From: Sporopachydermia quercuum | Taxonomy: Eukaryota > Ascomycota > Sporopachydermiomycetes > Sporopachydermiales > Sporopachydermiaceae | NCBI GenBank assembly: GCA_001599295.1 | Contig: BCGN01000004.1 | Location: 1,551,676 to 1,615,675 of the forward strand | Direction of reading: 5' to 3' | Length of the DNA stretch: 64,000 nt | Position numbers and translations under genes: made by a program | Shown here: piece by piece, positions 8,881 to 64,000 of the stretch | Position numbering within the stretch: the stretch's first letter is position 1 | Layout of the letters: each line of letters starts with the position of its first letter | The notes under the pieces: generated by a model | What the model saw: only the letters and a program-made list of their open reading frames with translations | Told to the model about the DNA's origin: nothing | The model's database searches: none

Positions 8881-9758
8881 TTAGATGAACTGTCAATTAA
8901 TATGCACAGCCACCTGTTTTTATGATTAGATGTTGCTGATATATGGTAATGAGTTTCAAAAGAAATCAGTAAAATTGTGATGTGAATTGTATTGTATTAC
9001 TGCGGCGGGGGGNAAAGGTACATTCTCAAAACGTATGAGATATGTGGATTGAGCTACTATGACAGTTTTCCGAATCTTATACGTCAATTTATAAACCAAT
9101 TGAGTCGAATAAATTAATCAGTATATTTGTAATCATATAAGAACCAGTGCAATAATACATAATTTCATAAGGTAAGAAATACATTTGGAGCCGATAAGTC
9201 TGTGAAGTGAGTTTTATGGCTAGTTCTCTTCTTGGTAATAATTAGTCACGTAGATAATTCTGTAAACGGAAATCATAAGGTTAGCAAATTTCGGAGATGA
9301 TTAAGCTAAAACATTATCTCCTAAATATGTTATCTTTAAGGTACAGCCAAATTAATCGGGTTCATCGGAATTTCCGACATAGATCAACTGAGAATTTAGA
9401 GATCCGCTTCAAATCAGATTGAGCTAGTTAAAAAAAATTCTCTGTGTCTCTGTCAGACNGCAAGGAAGTACCAAATTAATTAAAGTGTCTTCATTGGCTC
9501 TAAGAGATCATACGAGGCATATGAAGAATTCGCTATTGCTACTGAGATATTTGCTTATACAAGTATAGGATTTTGATGCATTCTTCAAATCTATATCAGA
9601 TATTTTGGTTGCCGAATCAAAAGTTCTGGATTCGGTTTATAAGGCTGATCTCCATCAGCAATGACGTATCATTTCGGATATCCTGCTTTTTACATACCTT
9701 TCTAACCCTTCATCTTATTTTAATTCATTCTATGGCATTTGTCATTTTACATGGTATC
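8881..9758. other. Intergenic region, PTPA gene to creC-like gene
   Basis: About 880 bp that should hold the creC-like promoter and the 3' end of the PTPA gene (both minus strand). There is a short G-run near 9003-9012 interrupted by an n. No gene, RNA or repeat seen. Confidence 0.4.
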
Positions 9759-12032: not shown

Positions 12033-15000
12033 ATGGATCCGCTGACCCTGAACTGGTCAAATGTTCAGCTCCAGAGACTTAAATCTGCTTTAGAGCTATT
12101 TCAAAATGATCCATCAACATTAACTACAGGAACGGTGAGAGAAGTAGAAAGTTGTTATGAGGAAGTAAAGAATGACTTGAAGTTTCTCTTTGGGCTTCCG
12201 AAAAGGTCAGATATAGCTGCGAATGCTGTGAAATCAGGTACGGTTTTGTTGATTGGATATTTGGAGCTTATGGCATGTTGATGATATGATTGAAAAAAAG
12301 ACCATTAGCATGTTTGTTCAAGTGATATATGTTTTGATGACTTTTTATTGGTTACTAACTATATAATCTTTAGGCAAGTTTCAAATCAACCAAAGTACAA
12401 TCGAGATCAATGAGTCTTTTCAAAGTGATGTGTTTGCTGTTTCGGAAATTCTCGGAATAGATGAAAGAATTGCAGTGTTATTAGTACTCAATTGTAGGGA
12501 TGATACAAGAAGGCTAGGTCTAACGGCACCACAAGCGGCTGTTGATCTATTTCAAACCCGTCACCAATCAATACTACAAAACTTGATTCTCTTAGTGCAA
12601 ATTTCTAATCAAGCGAACTTGGAAAGAGGCAAATTTATTCAGGAACCTGAATCATCATTCAGACTATTAATACAATCTTTTACTGAGGACCTATTACGTG
12701 ATAAAATGTTTGTCCCAGAAGTAATTAAGTGTTTTTCACTNATTAGGGAATCGATATCTCGGTTGGAAAAAGAGGCTGAGGCTACTAAACTATTGAAAAC
12801 GAATGCGTCTATCGATGTGTATAGATTTGTTAAAAGAAGGATAAGTCACTATCGAGAAGCTTATGATGCATTGGGAGAATTATTGTATGGCATATTAGAA
12901 GCTGGTGGAATGACAGTGGCACATTTCAAATTATTGGCGGATGACCTCTTTCTTGTTTCTTCTGTTTCTGCATCTCTAGTTGTTTATATTCCTACATTAG
13001 TTGGATTTCTCAGTACATTTTATTCTCAAAGCCCTTTGGCATCCCGATACAANTCAGGTGTCTCAGATGGTGAGGCACTACATACTTACTTATGTCGAAC
13101 TTTACCGGATAATCTTTCAGACCGATCAAGACCAAATGAAGAGGTTGGACGAACTACAGATACATTAGCATCATGGTTATGTTTCCTTCAAATGACATTT
13201 CTAGTTTTCTATCAGAGACTGTGTCGAAACAAATCAGCCGGTGATTTCCGAGACTCTTTTCGAAATAAAATTCTGTTTCCTTGTTTGGATGCAGTTTATA
13301 AAGGAGGCATGGAATTATTCCTCCTTCTGGCTAATATGTCAGGAAGAGTACGAAATTCCGTCTTAACAATCGCCCCTTTCTCTGATATAACAGATGTTCT
13401 TACTACCAAAGTTTCGAAACCACCATCTGATGGAACTAACGCCATTTTGAGTCATTTCGTCTTTTATTCCAGTGACAGTTACATCCCCGATCTCACACCA
13501 TCTCAAACTATCTTTGAACGTTGCGCTGAGGCTTTACTAGTCTTTTCCAGTACTGTTATTGATGATTTCCCCTATCTTCTTAAGAAATTGCATGAACGTG
13601 AGGATGANCTGCTGATCAAGCTTCGGGAGGAACAAAACAACAGATCAGCCACCAAATATGACGGGTCGAGTTCTTTCTTTCCTATTGCAAATGTTGCCAA
13701 GTTCATACTAGCGACAGCAATTCTATTAAAGAAAAGACCACAATATGCTGGGGAATATCTTGATCCCAAAGGTATCAAGTACGGATTTTTATGTTGGGCA
13801 GCTGCTTTGGGTTCCAAAACGAATGATTCTTGTTTTTTGCATTTACTTTCCGCTCTTACGTCAGACGAAGGATCTGCAAGAGCTGTTCATAGATTTGCTT
13901 CTGAGCCACCCAGTAATACTGGGTCAGAAGCTCAATCGTCGTTTCTTAGCTCAGAGAATGGATCTGGTACTATATACGACACTGTTTTTAGATCATTCAG
14001 ATCTGTTGAACAAGAATATCGTACCAAATCACTAGAAGATCTACAGGGACCAGGTACTGAAGCCATTGCGCGGGCCAATAGTTTTGCCGAACAATCACGT
14101 TTTATCTATGCTGGAGCTGAATTATTATGGGCTATAGGAAATGAACTTCCTTCTGCTATTCCTGCCTTGCAGCAACAATTCAGAATAGTAGATTTAGTGA
14201 TGAGTTTACTAGCAGTACGTGTATTCAGCAGAAAAGCTCCCTTGCTTCATGTCATAAGAAGTTTCTTCAATAGTTTCCCATCAAGTGCTGTGTGGAGTTT
14301 CTTAGATAGAACCCTATTCTATGTATCATCGGGGCCTAAGCTTGCTGATTATCATGGGATAATTCATAATAAAATTGAAAGTGTATCTGACATATGTGCA
14401 TTCTTAGCAGTGGTTGAGAGAGGACTGAATACTAAGGACCAAGAATATGCTAATGATAAAACTACTGCACTTGCTAAGACAACTATCGCAGCGGAGGGTA
14501 AACCGGTAACATCTTCTGGCAAACCTCCTTTTGAACTACCTTATGGCTCATCTTTAGGGGAATTCAGGGATAAGAAAGGTATTTGGCCATATATCGAATT
14601 TTTATTTACGGATGTGCTTTTCAGACTTCCAGTATTCCGTCTAGGATCTGAAGATAAAGCTACTTTGGAATTGCAAGCCTATTCCACTATTGTTGCCGCC
14701 CTAAAGTTAGGATTCCCATTGCCTCCAAACAAGAATGATCCTCCGGGAACAGGAGATATGTTTGCTCGTGTTTTATCGGAAACCGCAAGTCTCCCTACTC
14801 TCAACTATCTGCTGTCACCTTCAGGATATCGTCAATTGCTTTCACTAGGATATGATCCAATTCAAATAAATCTTTTATCAGGGAATGATAATCGCGTTAA
14901 ATTAGCTGTGCAAAAGTTGGGGACGGTTAAATTAATTTTAGAATTGCAGTCCGAATTCTTTGGTGCTGTTGTACCTACTATCAGATATGGATTGGGTAAT

Positions 15001-21901: not shown

Positions 21902-22165
21902 CTGATTTGGTTAGTAANTGATTTCATCAACTGACAATTGATTGATGATCAATTGTTATTACTGTCGACTAGATGATATGGTAAACATAGTCAGTCCTAA
22001 TGATTCGCTTGCTAAGTGATGAGGAATCGGTATTTAATTGCTTTCCTCACATTTTTAAATCATAAGAATGAAAGAAACANACAGCTCACCAATTCAAACT
22101 CCTATGTCTATGTATTTATCCGATCTTTTCCGATGTAAGAACAATTACCACTATTCTATACTTAC
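21902..22165 (-). other. Candidate 5'UTR intron of GPM1
   Basis: On the GPM1 strand there is a donor GTAAGT at 22165-22160, a perfect TACTAAC at 21916-21910 and a CAG acceptor ending at 21902, four bases before the ATG. The 9-nt branch-to-AG spacing is similar to ATP14 intron 1 (10 nt). Size would be 264 nt. Motifs are seen; splicing is inferred. Confidence 0.45.
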
Positions 22166-30780: not shown

Positions 30781-31160
30781 ACAATGGAACAGTGTTAGCA
30801 CATGGACATGGAATGTATCAGAAGACGATGAATTATGTGGCATTTGCAGAGTTCATTTTGATGGCACCTGTCCCTCATGTAAATTTCCAGGCGATGGTTG
30901 TCCTTTAGGTATGTTTCAGTTCAACTTTATTGAGAAACAAGCTCAACTGTCAGGCAAGCTTACTAACTTACGGGATAGTTGTTGGGGAATGTCAACACTT
31001 GTTCCACATGCACTGTATTTACAAATGGCTCGAAGTAGAAACATCTAAAGGTCTGTGTCCAATGTGTCGTCAGCCATTCAAGAATAATGATGGGAAAGAG
31101 GAACAGAGAAATGAAGTTCAGAACGAGAATCAAGACCTAGTCATCCAACAAGCTTTGTAA
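30764..31160 (+). CDS. APC11: Apc11, RING-H2 subunit of the anaphase-promoting complex
   Basis: Catalytic RING subunit of the APC/C ubiquitin ligase, working with Apc2 and E2 enzymes. Two exons, 30764-30908 and 30979-31160, 108 residues. The intron 30909-30978 is only 70 nt: donor GTATGT, TACTAAC at 30961-30967, acceptor ATAG. The start MKVIIEQWNSVSTWTW matches Apc11 (MKVKIEWKAVATWSW). Zinc ligands are in CGICRVHFDGTCPSCKFPG, CPLVVGECQHLFHMHCIYKW and CPMCRQPFK. The join VVGECQH fits the family VWGKCSH. The tail is short, acidic and polar. A 7-codon reading frame begins 7 nt upstream and overlaps the start out of frame. Confidence 0.95.
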
Positions 31161-32161
31161 AGGTAATTGGGATTTTTGCTGCTATTCTTCATAGCAAAAA
31201 CAGCATGAACGTAGCTGGGAACACATCAAAGCAGTCGGTAATCATGACATCTATTGTTCAAGAGGCTCTTTCTATTGGTAGGTTTCCTCATAACTGTAGA
31301 ATGGTATTCATCTATGCCTAGTGCCGTCACGCCTGATGATAAAGATTGTAACATAATCAAGATAAATTATTGCTATCATTTTGCTAACTACAGTTGAACT
31401 ACAGCTTATATGTACATCAGACATCAGCGTCTCAATTCTAAGACCAAAACAAACATCAGCCTATCAGCTATGGAATCTTTTTATCAATACTCTCTTTCCC
31501 AAGCTCCTATCTTGTACTACAGACAATCGGATAGCATCATACATAGCTTATGATGTCGCTACCTAATGAATCAAATTACCTGTAAAACTGATCTAATAGT
31601 AATATCTCCAATCGTACCTGACATTTATTCCTAACACGGTATCCCAGATTGTGCACCCTCACCTAACAATTCTTCAAATCCGATAATATCTCCGACTATG
31701 CTATCCCTGAAATGAGACAGGGGAAAGAGGAATCGAAATCTGTCAAAATAATCATTAAAAAGAGCAATTGATTGATTACTACTACTTTTGATTTGGCTTA
31801 AGAAATTCCGATGGTTCAACTGAATTTTTTCTGACTGGATCCTTTTATTTCTTTGTCAATAGTCAAAAACTCTGTTGATATTTCAAGCAGTTGAACGATT
31901 ACTCAATCAGATAATAAATTCTACACAAAGTAGCATGAGTGCTTCATCACCCTTTTGTATATGATTTGTGTTTCTATTTATATCTCTATTATCTGTTGTT
32001 TCTGTTAACTGAATTTCCACTGGATCAGGAGAATATATGGCAGGACTGTATCAGAAGAGTTGAAATCATCTCAATATTAAACATTAGTGAGGCGCGTTCA
32101 GTGTGTATGCTTACTATAGCAGTGTTCTAGTGGGTGCATTAGAATCGTTCGTTGACAAGCT
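31161..32161. other. Intergenic region APC11/VPS3
   Basis: 1 kb. It holds a 71-bp stretch resembling MSN5 coding sequence (31248-31318) and otherwise only short open frames (31381-31566 +, 31631-31819 -) that I do not recognise. Confidence 0.45.
31248..31318 (+). pseudogene. 71-bp relic of MSN5 coding sequence
   Basis: Gapless match to MSN5 positions 55309-55379, with 61 of 71 bases identical by eye. In the matching frame it reads VQEALSIGRFPHNCRMVFIYA against GQEALSNGRLPHNHGMVFIYA of MSN5, then meets a stop. Neither flank continues the similarity, so only a fragment remains. It is probably a decayed partial duplication. Confidence 0.65.
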
Positions 32162-35100
32162 ATGGAAGAGGGAGATAAGGAAGACGTTGAGAAGTCTTCC
32201 CAATCACCGGAAGGAGGAAGTGATGAGAAATCTTTAAAAAGGGATACTAACATCAAGGAAAACACACCAGAAGCAGCCCAAGGGGATGTGGTAAACGAGC
32301 AAGCTGTAGAAACAGGCCCCGTGGTACCTGAAGAACAAGGACCTTCAGAAGTCCAATCTCCAACATCACACACTTCGCCAAAACTTGACACAAGAGAACA
32401 GACAGTAACCGAATCTAACAGTCAAGAGAGAGACACCGGTAATCACGATTCAATTGTAAATACAGACTCCACAAATAAAAGCATTGCAGAATCATCGATT
32501 GCAGATTCCACAAACAATATCAAACCATCACCTAATGGAACTCCACATCTAGTATCATCGTCACCAGAGACATTATCAATAGCAAAGGAACCTTCAAGTT
32601 CCAAAGAATCTATTACATCGAATGAGAATAGCGGCAAATTTCAAACGTACTCAACAGTTACCCTAATATCAGACATTCCTACAAGCAATCCCGATATACC
32701 AGAAACTGAATCAGGCAACCAAGTCACAACCATAGAAGCTTGGGATAACAGTATATATGTTGGAACTTCGAAAGGTGAGATTTTGCACTTCTTCCAAGTT
32801 GAGGATGGTCAATATATCTTGGTGAGTAGACAAAGAGTCCTTGCAACTCGACTGAGACCTGTTAGCCAAATAGTGCTCTTGCCTCAAATAGCTAGAGCTC
32901 TAGTATTATGTCATAATTCTGTTAATGTTTTTTCGTTACCAGAATTTTCGCCAGTGAGTGGAATTGGAAGAATTAAAGATGCGAAAGGATTATCTTTGGA
33001 TGCTGACAAAGTTATCCCAACTGGATCTTCTGACGTAAAGGTATCTGGAGTTCATGTAGCTGTTTTTACCAAAAATACTATCAGACTGATCAACGTGCAA
33101 CCAGATTCACTAAGGCTTTTGAAAGATGTTAGCTATTCTGGTTCTTTGGTTGGGATAAGAAGGTCGTCATTAGTTCTTATTGGTTCAAAAGAGTTCTATG
33201 ACTTAATTGATATTGAGAACTTTCAGAAGATTCCGTTGTTTCCGGTCAACAATGGTACTCCAGAGGATAAAAGTAGCACTAGAGCAGAAGAGAGAATTTC
33301 ACCAATGATGACACCAGTGGGCACTGATGAGTTTCTCCTAGTAGTAGGAACAAAGAAAACTGAACCTGCTATGGGTATGGTTGTTAATACTGACGGTGAT
33401 GTCTCTAGAGGAACTATTGTATGGAACCAATTCCCTTCATCAATTGGTGTAGATTATCCTCATACCGTAGCGATGGTCAACGGGCAACTGGAATTTCATT
33501 CCCTATTTGATCAAACATTAGTTCAAACTCTTAAGGCACCCGAAGGAAGTTTTGTTACCAATGTATCAACTAAATTCTCAGTTAAACATCACGAATTGAT
33601 AGATAAACTTCGAACAGTACCGTTATTTGTCTCAGGGATCGAGCAGCAAGATCTTGTCAGTTCTCGAGAGATTCAGTCCAAAATCCAATCAGAGAAAGAG
33701 ACTATCGAGAAGCTGTCATTTCTAACTTCCAATTTAGTTCTCTTTAAGAAAAATCCTAACTCCGAAGGTGGATCCATTGAATGTCTACAATCTGCACCCA
33801 GAGTAGCTAGTATCGAGGAGAGAATAAAATCAATCTCTAGTAAACCTAACTCTAGACAAATGGTATACTCTGAGATCAATGATGAAATACAATCAATGGA
33901 TGTTAATTCCGAGCTATCTTTCCTAGAATTTGAATATCTTAAGTTATTTATTGGTGTTCATTATCTTGCAGATGAAGATGAAAATATGAAGAATGAATGT
34001 ATAGATGCTTGGTGTGAAGGCAGCCTTGACCCTAGGATATTCTTATATCTTTTCAGCAAGAATGAACCAGACTCTGACGANAGCAGCAAAAAAAACAATC
34101 ATGTTAGTTTGATACCTTTAGTGAAAGACATCCAAGGAAGTGTTTGGATATATAATGGTGTAATGGAGTTATTCAGCTCTCTCAGAGACAAAATTCAAGC
34201 TGTGATGTTCAGTAAGCGCTCGACGTCAGACTCAGAAACAAAAACACATGAATTTTATGACAATATACTGCAAACATTCATAAGCAAATGGTTAGCTAAA
34301 GGAAGATTAGAATCAATTCAAGATCAACAAAACGTCTTAGAAAGCATAGAAAAATTTAACATCATATATTGGCTTTATCATTATTCTACAGAATCTGAGA
34401 AAGAACTATTAAGGAATCACTCGAGATATTTACCTCCGCCAGAATCAACGCTTTACTCTGAGAACCCTGAAGTTAAAATTGAGAGATACAAAGCTCAAGT
34501 TCTGAGGATCATTGAATCTCACATTTCTTTCATTGATACTGACTTTGCATGGGTATATGACTTATTAGTATCAAACAAACAATACTACTTCTTGCTCTTG
34601 ATATATAAGAAGCAAAAGAAACTAGAAGAGTACTGCGAACTGTTCATAAAACTATTGGATCCTATGGAACAAGATATAGTCGACATTGGATTTCCTCACA
34701 GCGAAAATACGTATGATATAAAAGCAGTCTCCATTACTTCCTCGACTGGTCAGAAAACTACAGAAAAGAAAGGTAAACAGAAGAAGAAGAACAAACTCGA
34801 GAAGACTGGAACCATAGAAATCAGAAAGAATGACAAAAATAGTGTAGGGGCAGAGATTTTATTAAGTTTTCTTTGCGAATGTGAAGATACGGCAATAGTA
34901 TGGAAATACGGTTGCTGGTTGTTAGATCATTTTCCTGAACTCGGTATAAAGCTATTCTTATACGGAGATGCAAAAGTCAAGTTTGATGATGAGAAAGTGA
35001 TAGCACTTATAAGAGAACATGCCGAAAAGCCTGGTGAATCCGGAAAGGAGACGAATCTAATTGCAACAGCATGGACAAAGTATTTAGAGGATATTGTATT

Positions 35101-53576: not shown

Positions 53577-56500
53577 ATGGATTCGTCGGGAGTCCAACAG
53601 ATTGTCTCCGCATTGGAGACTATTCATAGTCCGTCTACTTCGAATGCTGATAGACAGAAAGCGCAAGAGGTATGTTCGCCATTACTTACATTTGATCTTT
53701 CATCCCACTATAATAAAGCATATTTAGAACTGCTTTATTTTAATGAATAGTATTTTTTTGCNTTTGTTTTTGTTCTATGATTCATATTCCATAGATCTGG
53801 TACTAACATGTTTTATTTATTCTAGTTTCTGGAAACTGTCAAAGCTCAAGAAGATGCACCACTGTGGGGTTGGCAACTGGCGTTACCTGAGCAAGGAAAT
53901 GATCCAGTGGTACGACATTTTGGCCTTACATTAATCCAGCATTCGATACAGTATAACTTCATTTTGTATCCCGAAATAAAACGTCGTGCGGTCCGTGATT
54001 GGGTAGTCGAATTAGCAACTAAAGTCACTGATGGTGATAAACATTTCATAAAAGAGAAAATTGCTTTCCTCTGGGTCGCCTTGGCCAAAAGAGTTTGGGG
54101 AGCTTTCCCCGTAGGTTCTGAAAACGAGTTGGAAGCTGAAGGATTTAAAAATGTGTCTTCCAGTGGTAGAGATGCCAGTGTAGGTGAATCTGCCGAACCA
54201 GATGATACCTCCCAACCAGACACTATTCAACCTGATGGATGGGTAACAATGGATCAAACATTATATGAAATGTGGAATGCTAATAACAGCACCAAAGAGC
54301 TCGTGCTTATTATATTTCGTACTTTGTTCGAGGATCTTTTCATGATAGAAGATCCTGTATCTGCTAAACGAGGAACCATTCTTGGTGCCATTTGCATAGA
54401 AGTAGTTACTTCAGAACATGTTCTAACAGAAACATACTCTTCAAGGGTTCCTTCGCTACGGAAATGTCGTTATGGTTCTGAAGGTTGGATTCGTAGATGG
54501 TCTGATTTATTAGGTGAATGTTTAGCTGTTGGACCTGCTGCTGACGCTCTGTCACAACGGTTCAGTATCAAGGTGCTCCAGACATTGAAAACGTGTCTCC
54601 ACTGGGTTCTACCATTGGAATTGCGTTCCGCTTCGCTATTAGAAAGGTTATCATCTTGCATTGTTATCGATTGTATACCCATTCGAACATTGGCAACCGA
54701 CTGTCTACACGCTCTATTCACCAGAAATTATGCCTCCGATGAAGATTTCCAACAAATCGTTGGAGTAGTGTTTATGTCTCAAGGAATACAGACCTTGGCT
54801 ACGGTATACAACTCCATCACAATAGATCCGGATGATATAGATGAACAAGGTTATGCTTTGTTGAAAAAACTAGTGGAAATGATTGTTGGATTAGGTGAAT
54901 TCCTTAACGTGAGTAAGAAAACTTTACCTAAAGACGCTGACATTGCAAGCTTCTTAGAGCTTGTTTTGTCTTCAACTCAGCATCCAAGTCTTATTATCTC
55001 TGGATTGTCTCTACAGTTTTGGTGTTCAGTGCTTCGAATTGAATTAGTTTTAGGCAATGAAGAAGTAATGGCTGTTGTTCCGAGACTGCTAGAAATAGCC
55101 GCTGATAGATTACTAGCTTATGATGATGTTCCAGAGGATCACGTGGCTCGAAAATTTCTTGAAATCGATTTTGATTCGGCCCCAGATATCTCAGTGTTTG
55201 TAGAAAATTACCGGAAGTTTATGGATGATATAGTTAGATTAGCTGTGTGTCGTAAACCAGAAACAGGTTTACAATGGATAGCTGCAAGATTGAGTATGTT
55301 TTTTCAATCATCTGCTGGTCAAGAGGCTCTTTCTAATGGTAGATTGCCTCATAACCATGGAATGGTATTCATATATGCCCAATCCCAGTTTGCTCTAGTT
55401 GAAGCTGGTCTCAGAGGTCTTACCAGGTGGAAAATATGGTATCAAGGCAGCGATAAACAAGAACTGAGAATGAACTTGGAAACCATTGTAGAACAGATAT
55501 GTAATGAAGTTCTAACATTGAAAATTCCTGATCCTTTACTACTGGGGAAGCATATTCAAACATTGGTGCAATTTGCTCCTTTATTAAAAGCTTCACAACA
55601 GCAATTGATGTTCAGAGTATTAGAAAAAGTGCTAGAAACATGCACATTTGATGCAGGAGATACTACTTTATCTGATGACGATCGTGAGCTTGTTAGAGAC
55701 CTACGCACTCTATGTGGAACAGAATTAAATAGGTTGGCTTATATGATGCCAGAAGCTCTCAGAAATATATACGAAGATCTAGAAAGAGTCATTGCTCAAA
55801 TTCTATCCGGTGACAGAGTAACTGAGCATGAAGCAGTAGCATTCAAATCATTTTTATTAGTTGTTTCTCAGAGATCTGCTATGCCTAATAAAGCAGAGAA
55901 ATTCATTGCAATTGTTGATCCAGAATTAGCTGCTTGGACAGAGAAAAGTACCATGCAAGGCTTGATGGATCTCCCTTGGTTTATGGAAAGAGTAGGCATT
56001 GTTAGAATTGCTGAGTATTTCCGCTCCCGTGGTATTTCTGCTTCGACTGACCTTCTACAGGCCAAAATGGATGCTAGAGGCAGAGAATTGAAATCAGAAT
56101 TAAAGTCTAAATGGTCAGCTCTGTTTCCCATACGTGCCACTAGAATATATATTCAGTATACCATTGAAAAACTTCCACATGACTCCTCTGAATATAAGGA
56201 TTTGCTTGCATTATGGAAACCAAGAGTACAACCTATTTTGCCCCATATCCTTCAGTTAATACGTCAAACACAAGCATATTTCAATCCTGACAACTGGATA
56301 GAATTGCCTTCTGAAGTGCAGTCTTTTGTTAAATATTCAACTATGGAAAGGCTATGGCAAGTAGGTGTTTCCATCAAGAGCAAAGATACATTTGTCGAGG
56401 AGAACGTAAAAGCAATGCATACGTTACGAGATTTTGCAGACTCGGTTGGTCATATCGTCAGCTATACAAGGGAGTACGCATTTCTGACATTGGGATCTAT

Positions 56501-60103: not shown

Positions 60104-61132
60104 TTAATGAGAATCGTGGATTTCTTCCAAAACAAACCATTCGTCTTCGGCAGGGGCAGCTTCTCCATCTTCGGCTTTAATTCCTTCAACTTCAACAGCA
60201 GAAGCAGTGTATGATTCTAATTCACTGGCACCTTCAGCTTCAATCTTAGGAGCAGCAGGCGCAATAGGAGAAGACCATGGTTTGACATTTCCTTCGGCAT
60301 CCTTAGGGGAGATAGGAGTAGGCTTGAATGACTTAAGCTCCTTGAGGTAAAGGTCTTGGATGAGATCTATGAATTCTTGTTAGCACATGAACAACACGAT
60401 TGAGCGTGCTGTCTCAAAGCTTCAGTTCCAATCGGTAATGGTTTTTCTTAATACATACTTGATCTCACAGCAGCGGCAGAGAAAGCTCTGACATTTCTGG
60501 CAGCAACGCGCTATATGTTGTTAGTATTCAATTGTAATCGTAAACAATGAGAAAACCTGAGGGTATTCTTTATTGATATAGGTCCTTGTATTACATTTCC
60601 TCTAATTCTCCTGGTTGATGATTAATAGGTAAACCATTAATCAAGGCACTGTCTAATATAATTCACTGTCTAACATAGTTCATTCAACACACCGACCGGC
60701 GCAACAAGGTCCACTTTCGTCAATTGAAGGTATCGTGTCCTCTGACACGTTAACAAACAATGAAATAGCAATTCAAACAATTTCCTTATGCCAGGCTTAA
60801 CTCTCAGTACATTTTGTTCTCGATATCATCGTTCCTATCTTCCGAATCTATAACCCCTGAATACCACACATCTCCAGTGACCACCAACCAGAACACTCCA
60901 ACAGCAATTGCCATCAATTGAACTTATTTCTAATTCAGACAAACATTCATCATTAAACCAACAATTATCTCCCACCAATTACTGTCGAATATCTATCGAA
61001 AATGTTGCTACCCCAAGAAACAAAACATATTATCATTCATTGAATCACCTAATCAACTATTGAACCTATCCCTAAATCAATCAATCAGCAATCATAACTT
61101 ACTGTAGAAACTTTGATAGATTGTGACAACAT
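60104..61132 (-). CDS. ATP14: Atp14, subunit h of mitochondrial F1Fo ATP synthase
   Basis: Peripheral-stalk subunit of ATP synthase. Three exons on the minus strand: 61132-61103 (MLSQSIKVST), 60510-60459 and 60366-60104; 345 nt, 114 residues. Intron 1 is 592 nt (GTAAGT, TACTAAC, ATATAG) and intron 2 is 92 nt (GTATGT, TGCTAAC, CATAG). The spliced protein begins with a presequence (RVAARNVRAFSAAAVRS), then NLIQDLYLKELKSFKPTPIS and PKDAEGNVKPWSSP, which match S. cerevisiae VIQDLYLRELKDTKLAPSTL and DAEGNVKPWNPP. The acidic C-terminus ends with DEWFVLEEIHDSH, like EEDWLVLDD...ESH. The gene is too fragmented to show as a long open frame. Identification is secure. Confidence 0.95.
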
Positions 61133-61720
61133 TGTAACTAATTATTTCAGAAAATTATCCAATGCTTTCTGTACTAATGCTGGTGGTTATTTTTCTTCAA
61201 TCGTATCATCAAACTTTCTTTCTTTCTAGTGCTCTTCTAGCTGATATCCCCATCTCGACTGCTAGCAAGTAAGAAAGGAGCTCTCCCTATTCTATTTCCA
61301 TTCAGTCAATCAACGTTCAGCTTCGGCCACAGTAATGAGATAGTTTGTTATTGGTGTTTGGGTGTTAAGTTTACTAGGAGGGGGTTTCGGGAGGTTTTAT
61401 CCGGGTAATTTCCAGATGAGAAGGTTTGGGAGAGACACGGGGGTCATTCTCGTGACAGTGAATGTGAAGTATAACAGAAAAAAAGGAATAGGAGATAGAA
61501 ACATATATGATTGATGGCATCTTGCTCTACTGTTACCGATTGATCTGCTGTGTTATTAATTGATTTGCTACGTGGGAACTATTGTATATTATCACTGAAG
61601 ATCTGTTTGTCTGTTGATGTTCTAACCGCTAAGTGAAATAGAATTGTTGAGCTCAGAAAAATAATTGGGGGAGCGCAATAGAAAGTGTAACATATTGAGA
61701 TTGTGCAAAAAAAAAATATA
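61133..61720. promoter_or_regulatory. Divergent promoter region ATP14/YHC1
   Basis: About 590 bp between divergent genes. AT-rich; an A-run lies just before the YHC1 ATG. No other feature recognised. Confidence 0.45.
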
Positions 61721-62351
61721 ATGCCTAAGATAAGTATTTTATTTGATAATGATTGATTTATATTAGATGGTTGAATTACGTGGAAAACAAAAATTTATCT
61801 GTAACATTGGTATTAACATATTGGTTGCTTTACTATTTCTGCGATTACTGTCAAGTGTTTCTCACACACGATTCGAGAAGTGTCAGGAAAGCTCATAGTA
61901 TTGGGAAGAACCATGTGAAACTAGTGAGTGATTATTATGAAGGTACGTTTGAATGTTATTAAATGTGGGATTTACAATGTAGAATATTTTAATAGAGTAA
62001 TGCATACTAACTTTTATTGCAGCGCGAGCTAAAGAATTGGGTTTACTACAGAGTTCTGTTATTTTCCAGGCGGGAGAAGATCAAGATATCTCGGTACAGA
62101 AGTATAATTTGGGCGCACCTGGCCTCTCAACAGGACATAAGAAGATACACAGAGGAAAATTCAATCGAAATAACAAGTTTGCGCCAAAAGAACAAGAAAA
62201 ACCGGATGATCCTTATGAGCTTCTGAAAACTAGAGTTCTTCCTCCTCCCCCTCCATTGGTTGTTGGAGGAACTTCAATCCCATTACCTACACCACAGTAT
62301 GCATACGTTCCACCAGTGATCGAGTTGAAGAATGTCAAATATCCTGAGTAG
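61721..62351 (+). CDS. YHC1: U1 snRNP protein C (Yhc1), with an AT-AC first intron
   Basis: U1-C binds the U1 snRNA:5' splice site duplex and helps U1 accept or reject splice sites. Three exons: 61721-61729 (ATG CCT AAG), 61834-61942 and 62023-62351; 447 nt, 148 residues. Spliced, the start is MPKYFCDYC, and the zinc ligands fall at C6, C9, H24 and H30, exactly as in human U1-C (MPKFYCDYC). Intron 1 (61730-61833) is AT-AC; intron 2 (61943-62022) is ordinary (GTACGT, TACTAAC at 62005-62011, GCAG) and joins SDYYE to [10 protein letters not shown]. Without intron 1 the zinc-finger frame has no ATG: a TGA at 61750-61752 closes it, and only a TTG follows. The tail has a proline run ([10 protein letters not shown]) typical of U1-C. 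I know of no intron in S. cerevisiae YHC1. Confidence 0.93.
61730..61833 (+). other. AT-AC intron of YHC1 (104 nt, U2-type)
   Basis: Begins ATAAGTATTT, identical to a strong GTAAGTAT donor apart from position 1, and ends TTGCTTTAC. A TATTAAC branch site lies at 61811-61817 with 17 nt from the branch A to the intron end, inside the 9-23 nt range of the other introns here. It does not match U12 signals (ATATCCTT, TTCCTTAAC). The only AG between the stop and the zinc finger is at 61764-61765, and it gives neither the frame nor the MPK join. Phase 0. Confidence 0.85.

Positions 62352-63183: not shown

Positions 63184-64000
<817 letters not shown>

Follow-up and report, generated by a model that had tools for sequence, protein, structure and literature searches.

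We have found that the first intron of the YHC1 gene of Sporopachydermia quercuum, which encodes the U1 snRNP protein U1-C, is very likely a U2-type AT-AC intron that is removed by the major spliceosome (Table 1). The anatomy of the gene, its reading frames and the complementarity of its donor to U1 can be read directly from the window, by which we mean the whole stretch of 64,000 nucleotides that was analysed, and it is from these that we infer splicing in vivo. The zinc-finger frame of U1-C that continues from 61834 contains no ATG; its upstream opening ends at 61753, where a TGA at 61750 closes it. The bases ATGCCTAAG at 61721-61729 encode MPK, and the segment that follows (61730-61833) starts with ATAAGTATTT (its donor being ATAAGTAT), contains TATTAAC 17 nt from its end and terminates in TTTAC. 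When 61729 is joined to 61834 the product begins MPKYFCDYC and, as in other members of the U1-C/Yhc1 family, C6, C9, H24 and H30 all fall into place. The original prediction had described the frame without an ATG, the MPK exon, the join with its four zinc ligands and the ends and branch site of the removed segment, and each of these proved to lie where it had been put.

Several properties of the spliced product are consistent with this gene structure. The Pfam zf-U1 score rises from 59.3 bits (profile positions 4-38) without MPK to 69.7 bits (profile positions 1-38) with it, and the five PDB sequences matched with an E no higher than 0.001 all prove to be U1-C chains, with alignments that start at residue 1. 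The protein is complete at 148 aa, is encoded by a gene with two introns whose stop codon ends at 62351, and has its exons, frame, second intron and zinc ligands all intact. The removed segment has AT first and AC last, and the junction cannot slide without altering the product, as the flanking bases are G/A and C/T. We also note that the unspliced message runs into a stop after 11 codons, so that production of the U1-C protein depends on the removal of intron 1.

Table 1. Features of the YHC1/U1-C gene, in positions of the window
Feature	Positions	Strand	Remarks
Exon 1, ATGCCTAAG, encoding MPK	61721..61729	+	MPK completes the zf-U1 profile
Intron 1 (very likely AT-AC), 104 nt	61730..61833	+	AT-AC ends
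Intron 1 donor, ATAAGTAT	61730..61737	+	with exon AG, pairs with the U1 5' end at 9/10, mismatch at +1 only
Branch-site-like TATTAAC	61811..61817	+	branch A at 61816, 17 nt from the intron end
Acceptor TTTAC	61829..61833	+	first AC past the branch site; read directly
Exon 2, zinc finger YFCDYC...DYYE	61834..61942	+	
Intron 2, 80 nt	61943..62022	+	GT-AG, TACTAAC branch
Exon 3 and stop codon	62023..62351	+	
Nested GT donor GTATTT	61734..61739	+	5/10 to U1; joined to the AG that ends at 61855, it is in frame and deletes C6 and C9

New in this analysis is the finding that +1 is the one position at which the YHC1 donor fails to match the U1 5' end. Positions -2 to +8 of the donor, AG/AUAAGUAU, match nine of the ten positions of the U1 leader AUACUUACCU, as printed in the accessible text of PMC3985668, this leader being the consensus and maybe not that of this yeast. 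Part of the match is to be expected because the AG at -2/-1 lies in the Lys codon. On both strands of the window, the donor of intron 1 is the only site with at least nine U1 matches and an A at +1; the GSP1 donor also reaches nine, and the remaining introns that we checked reach 4 to 8. Judged against the consensus U1 leader, the donor is of the U1 type rather than of the U11/U6atac type, and the branch site is of the U2 class. TATTAAC differs from TACTAAC by one change, as do the sites of two other introns (AACTAAC and CACTAAC), and its distance of 17 nt compares with 9-24 nt for the TACTAAC-like sites of the other introns.

The donor, which departs from U1 complementarity only at +1, has an apparent counterpart in binding experiments. 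Judging by its description in the accessible text of PMC9436412, the oligo RNA-2+7 (A+1), a version of RNA-10 that carries A at +1, seems to have the same sequence as AG/AUAAGUAU. That text reports that oligos mismatched at +1 associate with purified S. cerevisiae U1 at about 100 times background while long-lived complexes scarcely form, that A+1 RNA is quickly released, and that predicted duplex stability and long-lived binding are uncorrelated for this U1, so that extended pairing alone failed to rescue A+1. It further reports that Yhc1 touches the U1/donor duplex near +1, which means that U1-C adjoins the single position at which the donor of its own gene deviates. Since purified S. cerevisiae U1 fails to hold A+1 RNAs (PMC9436412), one would not a priori expect an intron of this sort in a gene of the essential type, and the prior is also low because AT-AC accounts for 0.019% of annotated fungal introns according to the accessible part of PMC7072748. 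In our judgement the anatomy at YHC1 nevertheless outweighs this low prior.

To this anatomy can be added an enumeration of gene models that started from every ATG at or after 61100, allowed GT-AG, GC-AG and AT-AC ends, took 40 nt as the shortest intron and required a frame open to the end of the gene. This yielded 324 in-frame models (91 GT-AG, 57 GC-AG and 176 AT-AC). The CDYC motif is kept in 13 of the 148 GT-AG and GC-AG models, at least two of which split the ATG and so lack the Met, and in eight the ATG is whole in exon 1 (six GT-AG, two GC-AG). These CDYC-keeping models depend on the AG at 61766, the sole AG in the open stretch, which sits 50 nt upstream of the branch A, and their products carry additional residues ahead of YFCDYC; none of the 148 enumerated GT-AG or GC-AG models gives a normal U1-C N-terminus. 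CDYC is also kept in 66 AT-AC models, AT-AC ends being frequent by chance in such AT-rich DNA. Among the enumerated models, however, 61730/61833 alone combines a near-consensus donor, the usual branch distance and MPKYFCDYC, and the other AT-AC models on the same donor use an AC that lies before the branch site or within the zinc finger. The enumeration, together with the U2-type donor and branch site, thus supports the U2-type AT-AC intron that had been predicted, with splicing itself deduced from sequence.

We also asked how often such an arrangement might arise by chance. The pattern M(P/T)(K/R) followed directly by RTAHGT occurs once on the two strands of the window, at the YHC1 site. First-order Markov sequence of 20 Mb contains it six times, which corresponds to about 9e-5 per 300 nt, and lacks its strict MPK form altogether; TAYTAAC has a probability of about 0.0035 in a 22-nt window. 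The patterns were chosen post hoc with the site already seen, and the combined value of about 3e-7 is therefore an order of magnitude only. A structural reading of the region 61700-61850 was rejected, as this RNA folds no better than shuffled sequence (z 0.71, with 156 of 200 shuffles folding at least as well).

Two arrangements would give YHC1 an ordinary GT-AG first intron. One has a different first exon further upstream, the acceptor AG at 61766 and an N-terminal extension ahead of YFCDYC. Models of this kind do exist, the best of them (61269/61766) having the donor GTAAGA with 7/10 to U1, but their acceptor sits 50 nt upstream of the A of the TATTAAC branch site, no TACTAAC-like site was seen by eye before it, and in 61269/61766 an extension of 58 residues is placed directly before YFCDYC and the zf-U1 score is 57.6 rather than 69.7 bits. 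Such a gene would also make the occurrence of MPK beside a U1-complementary donor a coincidence, and we consider it very unlikely. The other arrangement starts from the same ATG and joins the donor GTATTT at 61734 to an acceptor ending at 61855, with a product (MPKIMFLTHDS...) of 142 aa whose frame is kept through to the gene's end. This product has lost C6 and C9, however, and its zf-U1 score is down to 35.0 bits; the donor matches U1 at 5/10, the branch distance is 39 nt, and the C6A substitution in Yhc1 is lethal to S. cerevisiae according to the accessible text of PMC3985668, all of which makes this arrangement extremely unlikely. The 61734/61855 junction could nonetheless arise as a by-product that yields no working protein, and the product of this nested pair (61734-61855) might be the one annotated by gene finders limited to GT-AG.

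A different kind of explanation is that two bases of a true GT-AG intron were misread, or that this YHC1 is a decaying, non-functional copy. The 46 isolated Ns in the window indicate that some positions are uncertain, and copies of YHC1 were viewed within the window only. An error would have to have affected both ends in matched fashion, turning G into A at the first base and G into C at the last, in a part of the window that is free of Ns (none lies after 59765), and decay is at odds with the intact exons, frame, second intron and zinc ligands; either possibility seems quite unlikely. The AT-AC ends might also suggest a U12-type intron, removed by the minor spliceosome. The U12 donor consensus is ATATCCTT, whereas the donor of intron 1, ATAAGTAT, is of the U1 type and not of the U12 type. 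The accessible text of PMC5499181 moreover describes the minor spliceosome as lost in all Ascomycota, and the likelihood of a U12-type intron at this site is close to negligible.

The remainder of the window provides a setting for the AT-AC intron of YHC1. We compared 12 candidate introns, 11 of them hand-picked from a longer pattern list and the twelfth from NUP192, where the donor was set from the end of the open reading frame. Seven of the 12 are clear coding GT-AG introns (562-655, 1249-1343, 2668-2828, 30909-30978, 53670-53825, 61943-62022 and 63256-63501), and one (21902-22165) is a GT-AG intron that probably belongs to a 5' UTR, as it immediately precedes the ATG in a gene that we take to be GPM1-like; the donor of the latter, GTAAGTAT, is complementary to U1 from +1 to +8. 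Three candidates (9260-9697, 32105-32270 and 60511-60692) were dropped because they had no frame support. Near codon 80 (in the stretch 12033-12400) the NUP192-like gene is interrupted by an intron with an unusual donor that fits either GT-AG (GTTGAT at 12277, 4/10 to U1, acceptor 12373, Pfam 79.8 bits) or GC-AG (GCATGT at 12273, 5/10 to U1, acceptor 12378, Pfam 83.0 bits, which is 3.2 higher). The statement in the original prediction that all 13 other coding introns in the window are GT-AG therefore holds for the seven clear cases; the number 13 was not recovered, and with NUP192 fitting GT-AG or GC-AG the wording was too strong.

The neighbours of YHC1 include GSP1/Ran and genes for proteins with Nup192, Nsp1_C, CPSF_A, Exportin-5 and zf-ANAPC11 domains. 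Gene content and the TACTAAC introns together suggest that the window is nuclear and comes from a budding yeast. At residue 120 of GSP1 a CTG codon stands opposite a Leu in GSP1/CNR1, the best PDB match, which argues against CUG-Ser at that single position. The 46 isolated Ns, all single, lie between 1582 and 59765 and are perhaps ambiguous or heterozygous positions that were turned to N. No Rfam match was obtained at gathering thresholds over the whole window. Searches by tblastn with the 148-aa protein and a three-row U1-C alignment gave no relatives in the collections viral_contigs and genome_contigs; these collections are viral and prokaryotic, and so little was expected of them.

U2-type AT-AC introns of animals and plants were reportedly described by Wu and Krainer in 1997 (cited in PMC6726248). 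Intron 1 of YHC1 resembles these in its AT and AC ends, in an inner donor and branch consensus like that of GT-AG introns and in its probable use of the major spliceosome; it differs from them in that its genome resembles that of a budding yeast, with the minor spliceosome reportedly lost, and in that its host gene encodes the U1 protein that contacts +1. AT-AC splicing in a yeast without a minor spliceosome has precedents in the accessible text of PMC6726248, namely a natural AT-AC junction validated in the S. cerevisiae SUT635 protointron and an alternative use in RPL30. SUT635 is a noncoding RNA in which GT-AG is also used, and RPL30 makes alternative AT-AC use of a normal GT-AG intron (PMC6726248); in YHC1, by contrast, AT-AC is needed for the coding frame, and we found no GT-AG model that restores the N-terminus. 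The same text, citing Parker and Siliciano, ranks AT-AC second only to GT-AG in efficiency among the end pairs of a mutated yeast intron, which bears out the earlier claim that A1 and C-1 are compatible in a yeast reporter. As in those 1993 reporters, with their paired changes of first and last base (via PMC6726248), AT-AC takes the place of GT-AG in YHC1; unlike them, the YHC1 intron is natural and its donor is otherwise complementary to U1 from -2 to +8.

In RNA-seq data from fungal pathogens, including Candida species, AT-AC makes up 0.09-5.19% of splice sites according to the accessible text of PMC6176087, and with values as high as this in some fungi an AT-AC junction in a yeast is by itself not unprecedented; no validation of single AT-AC junctions was seen in that text. 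The accessible part of PMC3091305, on dermatophyte genomes, mentions AT-AC, Saccharomycotina and intron, and a word search for "AT-AC" had no hit in PMC3983031 or PMC2911113. We found no literature that pairs an AT-AC intron with YHC1, or AT-AC introns with yeast U1C, in a search that left most subscription papers outside its reach, and this is weak evidence that the YHC1 case is unpublished.

If intron 1 is spliced as an AT-AC intron, U1 would meet AG/AUAAGUAU through nine Watson-Crick pairs around a single A/C mismatch at +1, the branch would form at UAUUAAC, and the second step would bring A1 into contact with the terminal C, the two replacing the usual G1 and G-1. Splicing of this intron may be slow and may limit the supply of U1-C, in which case the output of U1-C would follow the strictness with which A+1 is rejected. 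A feedback role of the AT-AC intron is possible. A more specific idea, which we put forward tentatively and consider rather doubtful, is that the intron serves as a built-in gauge of 5' splice-site stringency through which U1-C holds its own activity at a set point. Rejection of A+1, involving U1-C, would lower productive AT-AC splicing of the U1-C message, and either retention of the intron or use of the nested GT donor, which lies 4 nt inside the intron and would remove C6 and C9, would give no working U1-C; with the remaining nine positions almost fully complementary to U1, the check at +1 would be decisive. The sign might also be the opposite, with U1-C helping the weak A+1 site rather than rejecting it. 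In human cells, U1C and U1-70K are linked by cross-regulation that operates through an alternative 3' splice site of U1-70K and NMD (accessible text of PMC3798272). The level of U1-C is there tied to splicing of the message for a U1 snRNP protein, as it may be in YHC1, where regulation is a candidate only; unlike in the human case, the candidate element would lie within the gene for U1-C, as a non-canonical intron.

Should intron 1 be removed as we propose, it would illustrate how gene finders that accept only GT-AG could mis-annotate a core splicing gene, and the gene would offer a ready-made in vivo test of the balance among 5' splice-site proofreading, U1 complementarity and the contact between the first and last bases of an intron. 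Production of the protein that checks introns would itself depend on the cell accepting a non-standard one, and intron 1 of YHC1 is a candidate for a simple circuit that keeps the U1 snRNP in homeostasis.
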